Origin: a virus
Strand: one strand, 5' to 3'
Length of the DNA stretch: 26,123 nt
IMG/VR virus record: IMGVR_UViG_3300008267_001644
Location: 1-26,123 of that record
A program made the translations under genes and the position numbers. Below the pieces are notes generated by a model, which saw only the letters and a list, made by a program, of their open reading frames with translations, made no database searches and was not told the DNA's origin. Below, one piece after another: positions 6,915 to 14,598 of the stretch; the stretch's first letter is position 1; each line of letters opens with the position of its first letter.

Positions 6915-7260
6915 GAATTAGTTTTATTTCTAATGTAAGATCTTTATTAAAATCCAATATAATCATTGGATTGACCTTCACCTTTGTCCCATCCTTCACA
7001 AACACCCCCACCTTCTTCAGCTTAGAAATCAGATTGTTAATCGTTGGACTCGTACTCTCGTATTTCTCACAAAACTCCTTACGTATATTTGCGTAACTGA
7101 TGTTCCCCTTAATAGCTGTAAAGGCTATAAGCTGTATCTCCCTCTGTGTAAGCTTAAGATTGTTCACAGCTGACAGAATGGAATAATACTTCTCAGCCAA
7201 GGAGAAATTATCATTCTCCTGCTTCTTCATCCTTTGTAATATAATCTTCGTTGGTTCCAT
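6907..7260 (-). CDS. Winged-helix transcription regulator-like protein
   Basis: 117 residues from the ATG at 7260. An upstream TTG at 7275 lies inside the promoter and is rejected. Residues ~37-90 read as a wHTH: helix LTQREIQLIAFTAI, then NISYANIRKEFCEKY, then a recognition helix TSPTINNLISKLKKVG, followed by a wing (VFVKDGTKVKVNP). It is the first gene of the leftward operon, directly after a host-type promoter, so it may regulate this operon or its own promoter (inference). It could instead be a structural protein that borrows the fold. Confidence 0.65.
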   Translation of the reverse strand: MEPTKIILQRMKKQENDNFSLAEKYYSILSAVNNLKLTQREIQLIAFTAIKGNISYANIRKEFCEKYESTSPTINNLISKLKKVGVFVKDGTKVKVNPMIILDFNKDLTLEIKLIHG

Positions 7261-10446: not shown

Positions 10447-10683
10447 ATGAAAAGAACATCATTACAAGATTGTATATCTCTAGGGAATAATAAAGTTGAT
10501 AACAATAGTCTTTATGTGGTTATTGATAGTGAACGTAATAGTGGTAATAGAGCTGGGTCATTTAATATTGCTTATGAAGGAGGATTTCTTGAGCATATTG
10601 GTGATACATTCTATAAGGTGAAAAGAATAGTTGCTGATAACCTTGGACTTGTTATACTATCTGATTATCCTGTTGAGATGTAA
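10447..10683 (+). CDS. Hypothetical small protein
   Basis: 78 residues, MKRTSLQDCISLGNNKVDNN, mostly beta by appearance (SLYVVIDSERN; GDTFYKVKRIVADNLGLVILSDYPVEM). No family recognised. It is followed at once by the structured RNA region at 10688. Confidence 0.6.
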   Translation: MKRTSLQDCISLGNNKVDNNSLYVVIDSERNSGNRAGSFNIAYEGGFLEHIGDTFYKVKRIVADNLGLVILSDYPVEM

Positions 10684-10687
10684 TTAT

Positions 10688-10707
10688 ATGGGCTGTAACA
10701 GGCCCAT
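10688..10707 (+). other. 5' hairpin of the structured RNA region
   Basis: ATGGGC (10688-10693) pairs with GCCCAT (10702-10707). Its left arm overlaps GGCTGTA (10691-10697), which can pair instead with TACAGCC (10803-10809). Confidence 0.5.
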
Positions 10708-10760
10708 TTCTATTTTCCTTTCAAGAGGAACTAATGGTTCGAGTCCATTAATAGAAGCAC
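10708..10760 (+). ncRNA. tRNA-like element without D arm
   Basis: A 7-pair acceptor-like stem, TTCTATT (10708-10714)/AATAGAA (10750-10756), encloses a 5-pair arm TTCCT (10715-10719)/AGGAA (10726-10730) with loop TTCAAG. Two bases later comes a T-type arm: AATGG (10733-10737), loop TTCGAGT (10738-10744), CCATT (10745-10749), joined directly to the acceptor strand as in real tRNA. GGTTCGAGTCC is the canonical T-arm consensus. There is no D arm, the middle loop has six bases rather than seven, and the 3' end reads GCAC, not CCA. It could be a tRNA mimic, a degenerate tRNA or part of a regulatory RNA. Confidence 0.5.
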
Positions 10761-10783
10761 AATATATCTGGACGTATATTGTA
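10760..10783 (+). other. Hairpin 3' of the tRNA-like element
   Basis: ACAATATA (10759-10763 region to 10766) pairs with TATATTGT (10775-10782), eight perfect pairs around the loop TCTGGACG. It stands between the tRNA-like fold and the terminator. Confidence 0.5.
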
Positions 10784-10805
10784 CAGTTAGATACATTTGA
10801 CATAC

Positions 10806-10836
10806 AGCCTGATATTTCTATATTGGGCTCTTTTTT
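10806..10836 (+). terminator. Terminator of the structured RNA region
   Basis: AGCCT (10806-10810) pairs with GGGCT (10825-10829), followed by CTCTTTTTT-like T run. Its left arm overlaps TACAGCC, which can pair with upstream GGCTGTA, so termination could be conditional. Confidence 0.55.
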
Positions 10837-10903
10837 ATTTATTCACATTGTTTACCTCATTAATAAGGGAAACATTTTTATTCACACATTAAATAAAATT
10901 AAC

Positions 10904-11182
10904 ATGGAAACAATTATTAAAGGCAAAAAGCTGCCTAGTTTAGAGATTAGAAGTCCTAAGGTGAGAAAACTCTTAGAAGATCTTCGTATTGATTACAAGA
11001 TTGACCCTCGTGAAAATATAGTTTTATTTGATTTCAAAGAGTTTGATTTTTCCATTAAGAGAGCTAGTGGATTGGATTATTTCATCACTAAAATGATACA
11101 CAAAGCATATCAAGATGGATATAAAGCAGGTGCTAAATCATTAGGTAGGTCACTCATCTATATTATTAATAATAACACTTAA
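10904..11182 (+). CDS. Hypothetical basic protein
   Basis: 92 residues from the ATG at 10904 (METIIKGKKLPSLEIRSPKV). The frame is open further upstream but that part covers the structured RNA, so the later ATG with its A/T leader is chosen. Basic, mixed alpha/beta, with a helical C-terminal part (ITKMIHKAYQDGYKAGAKSLG). No family recognised; nucleic acid binding is conceivable from charge alone. Confidence 0.6.
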   Translation: METIIKGKKLPSLEIRSPKVRKLLEDLRIDYKIDPRENIVLFDFKEFDFSIKRASGLDYFITKMIHKAYQDGYKAGAKSLGRSLIYIINNNT

Positions 11183-11191
11183 ATAGTTATT

Positions 11192-11264
11192 AAAGAGTCT
11201 TGTATTTGTAGAAATACAGGTTTCGGTTAGGTCGCCTGGTGTTTCCACACTGGGCTCTCTTTTA
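11192..11264 (+). terminator. Branched hairpin/terminator structure
   Basis: AAAGAG (11192-11197)/CTCTTT (11257-11262) can enclose two hairpins: CTTGTATTT (11199-11207) with AAATACAGG (11212-11220), and CCTGGTGT (11235-11242) with ACACTGGG (11247-11254). It ends with GGGCTCTCTTTT, as does the terminator at 10836. This is more elaborate than a simple terminator and may be an RNA element. Confidence 0.5.
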
Positions 11265-11616: not shown

Positions 11617-12267
11617 ATGTTCACACAAGCAAAACTCATTTTACAATCTTACAAACCTCTAAAACTAGAGAAAGGAATGTGGTTCCTTGCAACACACCAC
11701 GATCAAGTGTCTGTTTATGAATTAGGATATAGCATATATTCTGATGAACAAATGGAAACTTTTTTACAGCTTAATGGCTATCCTGTAGAGCCATATTTAT
11801 ACATTGTAGGTAATCCTAACATCCCTGATGAAACATTCCTAATAGCTACACCTGAACAAATAGGTTGGTTTGATGAAGGAGAACACACTGATGAGATGCA
11901 TGACATATCTATTAAGGAAATTAATAATATTCTTGATAATGATGGCTATTGTCAGATGGAAGTGGAAGAAGAAAACCTAGATGATGATGAAGCTCAAGAG
12001 GAATATATAAACATTGTTCCTGTTCTGACGCAATACAAGGTAACCATTAGATATGAATATGAGGACGATGAACCAGAATACATTCTAGAGGGTGATGAGG
12101 AGTTTGATATGGATGATTATAGATGTGAGATATGTAATGGTACAGGAGAAGCTTATGCTGATGGTGTGAGCTGTTCATCTTGTAATGGTAGTGGTAGTTC
12201 ATATAAAGGTGGTGGTGGAGATGATGAGCCTGATGATTGGGAATATTATTCAAGTTATGATTATTAA
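11617..12267 (+). CDS. Acidic protein with DnaJ-type zinc knuckles
   Basis: 216 residues. The N-terminal ~110 residues are an unrecognised alpha/beta region, followed by a long acidic segment (~115-168). The C-terminus carries two CxxCxGxG repeats typical of DnaJ zinc fingers: C170EIC173NGTG and C186SSC189NGSG, then a Gly/Asp/Tyr-rich tail. One zinc bound by both knuckles is expected. There is no J domain, so it is not a full DnaJ. It may bind unfolded or partner proteins or act as a scaffold (inference). The gene stands alone with its own structured leader. Confidence 0.65.
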   Translation: MFTQAKLILQSYKPLKLEKGMWFLATHHDQVSVYELGYSIYSDEQMETFLQLNGYPVEPYLYIVGNPNIPDETFLIATPEQIGWFDEGEHTDEMHDISIKEINNILDNDGYCQMEVEEENLDDDEAQEEYINIVPVLTQYKVTIRYEYEDDEPEYILEGDEEFDMDDYRCEICNGTGEAYADGVSCSSCNGSGSSYKGGGGDDEPDDWEYYSSYDY

Positions 12268-13912: not shown

Positions 13913-13944
13913 TTTGGTAGTTTCAATTATTTGTTTTATCTTTG
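13913..13944 (+). promoter_or_regulatory. Host-type promoter of the homing endonuclease gene
   Basis: TTTG (13913-13916), 20-base spacer, TATCTTTG (13937-13944), an exact fit to TTTG-N19..21-TAnnTTTG. The start site would be near 13950, so the ATG at 13963 is used and an ATG at 13942 is rejected. Confidence 0.8.
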
Positions 13945-13962
13945 CTATACAAATACAATATT

Positions 13963-14598
13963 ATGATAGCAGTTTATAAAATAACCAGTCCAAGCGGAAG
14001 AATATACATAGGAAGCAGTAAAAATATTAAGAAAAGGTTTCAAGCATATAAAATGCTTAATTGCAAAGCTCAGAAAAAGTTATATCAATCTCTAAAAAAG
14101 TATGGATATAACAATCATAAGTTTGAAATTATTGAAGAATGTACTATAGATATATTATTAAAAAAAGAATATGAATATGGTATATTTTATAATGTACTAA
14201 ATCCTAAAAAAGGTTTAAATTTAATTCTTCCAAAAATAGACGATGTATATAACCATATATCTGATGAGCTTATAAATACAATGAAAAAGGCTCAACAGAA
14301 TAGGAAACCTATATCAGAAGAGGCTAGAAAAAGAATGTCTGATGCACATAAAGGTAAAAAACAATCTAAAGAGACCATTGAAAAAAGATTAGGTCATAGA
14401 AGAGGAAAATCTTTATCTCCAGAAGCAAAAAGATCTGGTGCTAAAATTACTGTAGAAAAAGTAATAGAAATTAAAAAATTACTTCAGGAGTTTAAAAGTG
14501 CATACAAAGTACATAGAGTCTTATCAGATCCAAATGTTAGTCTGAGTATAGTAGTAAATATTGCTTACAATCGTTCTTGGAAACATATAAAAATATAA
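13963..14598 (+). CDS. GIY-YIG homing endonuclease with NUMOD3 repeats
   Basis: 211 residues. The N-terminal nuclease has the GIY-YIG pattern with VYK (4-6) in place of GIY and YIG at 15-17, a likely catalytic Arg at 25 and an acidic residue near 69 (KKEYEYG). Two or three NUMOD3-type DNA-binding motifs follow (KPISEEARKRMSDAHKGKK; SKETIEKR; SLSPEAKRS), then a helical C-terminus. Such enzymes cut phage DNA lacking the gene and spread by repair. No flanking gene is visibly split, so it is free-standing. It is more AT-rich than its neighbours and has its own host-type promoter, both signs of recent insertion. Confidence 0.85.
   Translation: MIAVYKITSPSGRIYIGSSKNIKKRFQAYKMLNCKAQKKLYQSLKKYGYNNHKFEIIEECTIDILLKKEYEYGIFYNVLNPKKGLNLILPKIDDVYNHISDELINTMKKAQQNRKPISEEARKRMSDAHKGKKQSKETIEKRLGHRRGKSLSPEAKRSGAKITVEKVIEIKKLLQEFKSAYKVHRVLSDPNVSLSIVVNIAYNRSWKHIKI

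Follow-up and report, generated by a model that had tools for sequence, protein, structure and literature searches.

The window analysed here (the whole stretch of 26,123 nucleotides, positions 1 to 26,123 of IMG/VR record IMGVR_UViG_3300008267_001644) is a virus record of 26 kb whose genes form a crAss-like set. The minus strand carries the portal and terminase genes, and the plus strand those for DNA polymerase and replication. Relatives of the terminase occur in Cellulophaga phages phi17:2 and phi4:1 and in uncultured crAss-like phages. A homing endonuclease gene, GIY-YIG-like by one PHROG match, is located at 13942-14598. All features of the locus described below are on the plus strand. 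A 78-aa gene of unassigned function (10447..10683) is followed, 4 nt past its stop codon, by a terminator-like hairpin (ATGGGCT-GTAACA-GGCCCAT, 10688..10707). This hairpin is flush with a tRNA-like structure (TLS) of 49 bases at 10708-10756, which begins 24 bases after the stop of the 78-aa gene. Further downstream are a second hairpin (ACAATATAT-CTGGAC-GTATATTGT, 10759..10782), a weaker one (10786-10801) and an intrinsic terminator (AGCCTGATAT-TTCT-ATATTGGGCT followed by CTTTTTT, 10806..10835). Taken as a whole, these 157 nt fold 3.9 sd below shuffles. An open frame of 183 aa, starting from a TTG (10631..11182), runs through the TLS into a downstream 92-aa frame. No relatives of the 92-aa protein were found, so the downstream gene could not be used in the conservation test. 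Another terminator-like hairpin, in the GCCTGGTG-TTTC-CACACTGGGC region at 11234-11255, follows the 92-aa frame and resembles the one at 10806-10829.

The TLS was read directly from the sequence. Its acceptor-like stem is formed by TTCTATT (10708-10714) and AATAGAA (10750-10756). In place of the D and anticodon arms there is one short arm, TTCCT-(TTCAAG)-AGGAA (10715-10730; strands at 10715-10719 and 10726-10730, loop at 10720-10725), which starts 0 nt after the acceptor strand. A 2-nt linker, CT (10731-10732), leads to the T arm AATGG-TTCGAGT-CCATT (10733-10749; stem at 10733-10737 and 10745-10749, loop at 10738-10744), assigned from sequence and pair probabilities. A discriminator-like G10757 and then C10758 follow the acceptor, without an encoded CCA. 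Each of the 17 pairs is Watson-Crick, and the first acceptor pair is U1-A72, not G1-C72. A sequence-only reading of this DNA had described a perfect 5-pair T stem joined to a perfect 7-pair acceptor-like stem, a 5-pair arm between them, a six-base middle loop and the lack of both D arm and CCA. Each of these was found again in the window. Of the extent that it gave (10708-10760), the start stands and the end does not, as the structure stops at 10756; it had also missed that the TLS lies inside the open frame 10631-11182. When the TLS was folded alone, pair probabilities were 0.94-1.00 in the T arm and 0.71-0.97 for the first six acceptor pairs. The seventh acceptor pair had a probability of 0.20, A10750 being shared with an alternative sixth T-stem pair. 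The acceptor is presumably stacked coaxially on the T arm.

The fold exceeds chance expectation. The pattern scanned combined a T stem closed by GG/CC, a loop matching TTCRANN and, 3-35 nt upstream, a perfect acceptor of 7 bp. It gave 0 matches in 400 Markov-randomised 26-kb sequences (10.4 Mb) versus 1 in the window, as the claim that geometry and T loop together are improbable by chance had anticipated. In 1.1 Mb of related phage DNA, one further case was obtained (L034 at about 6960-7021). The TLS shares with tRNA (RF00005) the 7-bp acceptor stem and the 5-bp T arm with a TTCRA-type 7-nt loop; it lacks the D arm and a 7-nt anticodon loop with U33, and neither a covariance model nor ARAGORN called a gene there. 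The Rfam search with relaxed cutoffs that had been proposed as a check gave chance-level matches only; nothing reached a gathering threshold, and RF00005 was not matched even at E<=10.

A T arm followed by an acceptor 3' strand could also be an attP copy of the 3' end of a host tRNA, left by integration, and many integrating elements carry such copies (PMC9897764). This origin is extremely improbable here. A scan of 84,980 species genomes found no tRNA with this 3' end; the single exact match lay outside tRNA genes, and a pattern with both acceptor strands gave no match at all. The acceptor 5' strand, needless in an att copy, is present, and none of the window genes scanned was recognised as an integrase.

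The only homologue found to carry both the 78-aa gene and the TLS was a single contig (IMGVR_UViG_3300010354_000967, L002/L005). The 78-aa protein is 94% identical there, and the adjoining gene is 91/99/77% identical at codon positions 1/2/3. All 34 paired TLS bases and the 7-base T loop are identical. Five substitutions separate the two copies over the 70-nt block of hairpin and TLS, and 5/5 are at unpaired bases (P about 0.002). Three of them convert the arm loop TTCAAG into ATATAG, one changes the linker from CT to CA, and the sole change in the 10688-10707 hairpin is in its loop. The alternative sixth T-stem pair is impossible in L002 (A-A), and the fold predicted there has the 7+5 register. 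When L002 was folded with its flanks, a competing fold was 2.6 kcal/mol better than the one keeping the TLS. The lower 8 bp of the 10759..10782 hairpin are kept in L002 with a different and longer loop. In the terminator at 10806-10835, four pairs differ on both sides with pairing preserved. The sequence-only reading had proposed to look for compensatory changes in both TLS stems. Such changes were obtained for the terminator; within the acceptor and T arm there is no covariation, as the single homologue is identical in the stems, and the case for the TLS rests on conservation, not on compensation. Since stems and T loop are kept and the arm loop is free to change, the fold of the TLS is probably maintained, and for a role other than decoding. 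Decoding is very unlikely, because the arm loop has six bases in both copies and a 7-nt anticodon loop with U33 is absent from both.

Conservation of this kind bears on the possibility that the TLS is a former phage tRNA gene, now drifting, from which the D and anticodon arms were deleted. Such deletions do occur: in the Lactococcus phages described below, phi93 (L146) carries a D-arm-deleted version of the MP1 (L138) pseudo-tRNA. Full tRNA genes are also found in the same interval of related phages. Drift would, however, have to leave 34 paired bases and the 7-base T loop unchanged while neighbouring third codon positions are only 77% identical, and other phage groups, too, retain the acceptor and T arm with a middle that varies. 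Decay, one of three explanations put forward from the sequence, is therefore rather unlikely, the five unpaired substitutions weighing against it. The other two, a tRNA mimic and a domain of a larger phage RNA, are compatible with a kept, non-decoding fold placed between a hairpin and a covarying terminator.

The same comparison was applied to translation. A short peptide might start from ATG 10689 (MGCNRPISIFL-RGTNGSSPLIEAQY...) and be read through the region: the frame is open in the window and in L002, and 4/5 substitutions fall at third codon positions (P 0.045). The C-terminal parts are nevertheless unrelated and the lengths differ, the frame stopping after 57 aa in L002 and running to 11182 in the window. 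Continuation in frame into the next gene, named earlier as a refuting observation, was thus found in the window and not in L002, where the gene further downstream is a different one. The start codon lies inside a hairpin stem, the downstream terminator covaries as RNA, and the equivalent frame in the structure of the Lactococcus 936 phages hits a stop (TAA in GGG ATA TAA). Translation across the TLS is consequently very improbable, and the open frame 10631-11182, unconserved past the TLS in L002, is probably not a gene as a whole.

The region could instead act passively, as a 3'-UTR stability element in which stacked hairpins block 3' exonucleases and the T-loop match is incidental or stabilising. 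The compact array of hairpin, TLS, hairpin and terminator (folding z about -4 in both phages) would suit such a role. It would account neither for the T-loop consensus and 7+5 geometry nor for the look-alikes in unrelated phages, and is improbable.

Further homologues were sought in several ways. No TLS homologue was found in a phage collection searched with 800 bp of context. A pattern scan of viral contigs for the same acceptor returned only L005, i.e. the L002 contig, together with tRNA-like and coding matches. A scan for the short arm plus the T arm returned only the L002 contig and L129; the latter was rejected as a homologue, as its match falls in an ARAGORN-called tRNA-Thr. Covariance model R1, run over 49 related phage records, placed L002 alone above noise, and a profile search with the upstream 78-aa protein gave no new loci. 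In L003/L004, relatives of the 78-aa gene (57-58%) are followed by a hairpin in the corresponding position and by no TLS; the TGTAACA hairpin loop was not supported as a clade-wide motif. In two tRNA-rich phages (L006:7002-7103 and L011:87-188) a probable tRNA missed by ARAGORN was seen; its anticodon arm is CGA-like and its variable region is long. It has the acceptor TTCTATT/AATAGAA in common with the window TLS.

crAss-like relatives were found via the polymerase, and the interval from terminase to gene B (window 11617-12267) was compared. L018 and L034 have a tRNA-Arg there; in L046, L058 and L068/L112 it holds tRNA-like genes whose acceptor and T arms are standard and whose middles are not those of a tRNA. 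L034 has a second short tRNA-like element, of 63 nt, nearer the polymerase. Across 49 related records there are 27 occurrences of the T-arm core GGTTCRANTCC versus 6 of the reversed control pattern; several of the 27 are tmRNA or ordinary tRNA, and a few are coding-like or have no T stem. Nine of the 49 related crAss-like records carry a phage tmRNA between gene B and the polymerase, above the Rfam cut-off (e.g. L023:7329-7746, L032:8394-8805, L035:8543-8954 and L046:8371-8754). Leu-like tRNA-like genes were seen in L105, L106, L107, L117, L118, L123/L173, L112/L169 and L058:1111-1268. Their acceptor and T arm are near-constant (most AGTCAGG...ACAGGTTCGAATCCTGTCCTGACTA) and their anticodon regions aberrant; in L169, a 9-bp anticodon-like stem carries an insert of about 75 nt.

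Searching with the TLS alone yielded two unannotated look-alikes in unrelated phages, one in Lactococcus 936 phages (Skunavirus) and one in Clostridioides phages. In 936 slot 1, downstream of middle gene M4 (PhiS0139, CHPC129, M50), the sequence is GGGATAT-AAGYTAACGGAACTT-CA-AATGGTTCGAGTCCATT-ATATCTC, or GGGATAT-[AAGTTAACGGAACTT]-CA-AATGGTTCGAGTCCATT-ATATCTC with the middle in bracketed form; the CA linker is also that of L002. ASCC358, 645 and other 936 phages have GAGATAT-31 nt-CA, the same T arm (AATGGTTCGAGTCCATT) and GTATCTC. By BLAST, 78 Lactococcus records matched the 936 structure, only part of which were read by eye. An identically flanked slot holds tRNA-Trp in L133, L135-L137, L139, L140, L145 and L147, a pseudo-tRNA in MP1 and the D-arm-deleted version of the latter in phi93. 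A second 936 slot may have tRNA-Pro, or a tRNA-like RNA with the anticodon arm cut to a tetraloop hairpin. Examples of the second-slot RNA at L130:992-1055 and in L135, L137, L139 and L145 keep D and T arms and have a GCAA-, ACAA- or TGCA-loop hairpin. In most loci read, a third slot has an acceptor and T arm separated by a middle of 7-27 nt; three pairs of its T stem are changed on both sides among four variants. ViennaRNA favours another fold for slot 1 (-14.4 vs -8.8 kcal/mol), so that what makes these sequences tRNA-like is their sequence and geometry and not the predicted energy. In a 936-phage genome paper, no tRNA was found by tRNAscan-SE and ARAGORN (PMC6105707). Judging from bIBB names, phages of that paper are presumably among the carriers of the structure.

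The Clostridioides element, GGAGATT-[ATT|GTT|CTT]-AATGGTTCGATTCCATT-AATCTCC, is a bare, unannotated acceptor-T minihelix located behind a hairpin. Its 3-nt bulge is variable and its stems are constant; two annotated records contain it, as do about ten IMG/VR contigs, part of which may be the same phages. A Prevotella Lak-phage match was rejected as a look-alike, being an ordinary tRNA-Asn. The window TLS, the 936 structures and the Clostridioides element are of one kind by design, either through descent or through convergence: each has a 7-bp acceptor, a 5-bp T arm, a short or absent middle and neither D nor anticodon arm, and is unannotated. Their T-arm sequence is close to the general tRNA consensus. 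The high covariation in a mixed set is partly there by construction, as members were chosen for pairing, and is not independent evidence.

From these data, the TLS is most likely a genuine, unannotated, non-decoding tRNA-like RNA. Our preferred reading, to which we give a probability of roughly 40%, regards it as a minimal tRNA-like domain that a phage transcript carries at its 3' end and that most likely serves as a processing signal for host RNase P. The recognised unit would be the acceptor stem stacked on the T arm, a spacer hairpin replacing the D and anticodon arms. The host tRNA-maturation machinery, RNase P first of all, would read this stack, and RNase P would cut the readthrough transcript at or near 10707|10708. 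The cut would separate the 78-aa mRNA, with its own hairpin at the end, from a trailer of about 50-125 nt ending at the terminator 10806-10835. We infer that the locus is transcribed, that RNase P is what reads the stack, where the cut is made and that the phage benefits. A processing signal is favoured over a working tRNA because only the top half is kept, the TLS does not appear to decode, and there are look-alikes in unrelated phages. Among model substrates of RNase P, the classical minimal one consists of acceptor, T stem and T loop (McClain 1987, summarised in the review PMC11143913). Natural phage RNase P substrates other than tRNAs include M3 RNA, C4 RNA and T4 gene 32 mRNA (PMC11143913), and the bacterial enzyme also cuts tmRNA and 4.5S precursors and some mRNAs (PMC11143913, PMC12710915, PMC4919922). 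The acceptor/T-like helix of natural non-tRNA substrates has its counterpart in the TLS (12 bp in two helices plus the T loop). In the window, a U precedes the expected cut. With a hairpin flush with the acceptor, there is no single-stranded leader unless the end breathes, which may hinder RNase P; with another hairpin 2 nt 3' of the TLS, there is no free RCCA end before processing. The U1-A72 pair, the L002 competing fold, the 936 slot-1 fold and the single homologue are counted against the RNase P reading.

An excised RNA could alternatively accumulate and occupy a tRNA-binding host factor, acting as a mimic or decoy and not as the mark of a cut site. Candidate targets are RNase P itself, the CCA-adding enzyme, a tRNA-modifying enzyme, EF-Tu or a tRNA-cleaving defence nuclease. 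The anatomy expected is that of an RNase P signal, so that sequence alone cannot separate the two. Anticodon-damaged tRNA-like genes, frequent in related phages and in 936 phages, would suit baits uncuttable in the anticodon loop, and phages with several such RNAs exist (L052, L034, 936 phages). On the other hand, no defence or counter-defence gene is tied to the TLS, and a literature search on phage tRNA decoys gave nothing fitting. The TLS is also embedded between hairpins on a transcript, and no convincing promoter of its own was seen just upstream. A decoy seems rather unlikely.

More broadly, and as a tentative proposal, phages of unrelated groups may widely carry unannotated 'top-half tRNAs' at operon-end tRNA sites, kept for RNase P punctuation or as enzyme bait. 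Such RNAs would consist of acceptor and T arm, with variable filler where the D and anticodon arms would be, because the top half would suffice for either role. They would have been missed by tRNA gene finders because the cloverleaf is absent. Phage 'tRNA genes' are usually explained by codon supply. Acceptor/T-only structures swapping with full tRNAs in one slot suggest that, in some phages, what is useful in a tRNA gene is its recognition by processing enzymes. If true, this would explain some pseudo-tRNAs that annotation discards.

The general idea of a tRNA-like RNase P substrate is already known, in phages (phi80 M3 RNA, P1/P7 C4 RNA) and elsewhere (mascRNA). No description of the D-armless form, of its swapping with real tRNAs in one slot or of its recurrence in unrelated phages was found in the openly licensed papers searched; form and recurrence appear to be new. 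The phi80 M3 RNA and the P1/P7 C4 antisense RNA precursor are, like the TLS, non-tRNA phage RNAs, and are cut by RNase P according to the review (PMC11143913). Cleavage is known for M3 and C4 and only predicted for the TLS, for which no antisense role is suggested. The mascRNA of MALAT1 and the menRNA of MEN-beta are tRNA-like domains in the 3' part of a transcript, released by RNase P and RNase Z (PMC4919922). These belong to eukaryotic long non-coding RNAs, whereas the TLS is of phage origin and lies behind a coding gene, flanked by a hairpin and a terminator. The model substrate of McClain (1987) has the same top-half anatomy, and the Clostridioides element is almost exactly such a minihelix; that substrate is synthetic, and the window TLS adds a 16-nt spacer arm and is without CCA. 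Mitochondrial D-armless tRNAs (e.g. nematode tRNA-Ser) likewise have no D arm (PMC7609411), but they keep a decoding anticodon loop, unlike the loops TTCAAG and ATATAG of the window and L002. tmRNA (ssrA) also has a tRNA top half with a T arm and no D stem. The TLS has neither its tag reading frame and pseudoknots nor its GGGGG-type acceptor with an alanine-type G-U pair (C3-G70 in the TLS), and gave no Rfam match to RF00023. tmRNA is also placed differently relative to gene B and the polymerase; as position, acceptor and T arm all differ, the TLS was rejected as the tRNA domain of a tmRNA. The annotated tRNA-Trp and tRNA-Pro of 936 phages have a full cloverleaf and an anticodon, and the tRNA-Trp occupies the same slot as the D-armless structures of these phages.
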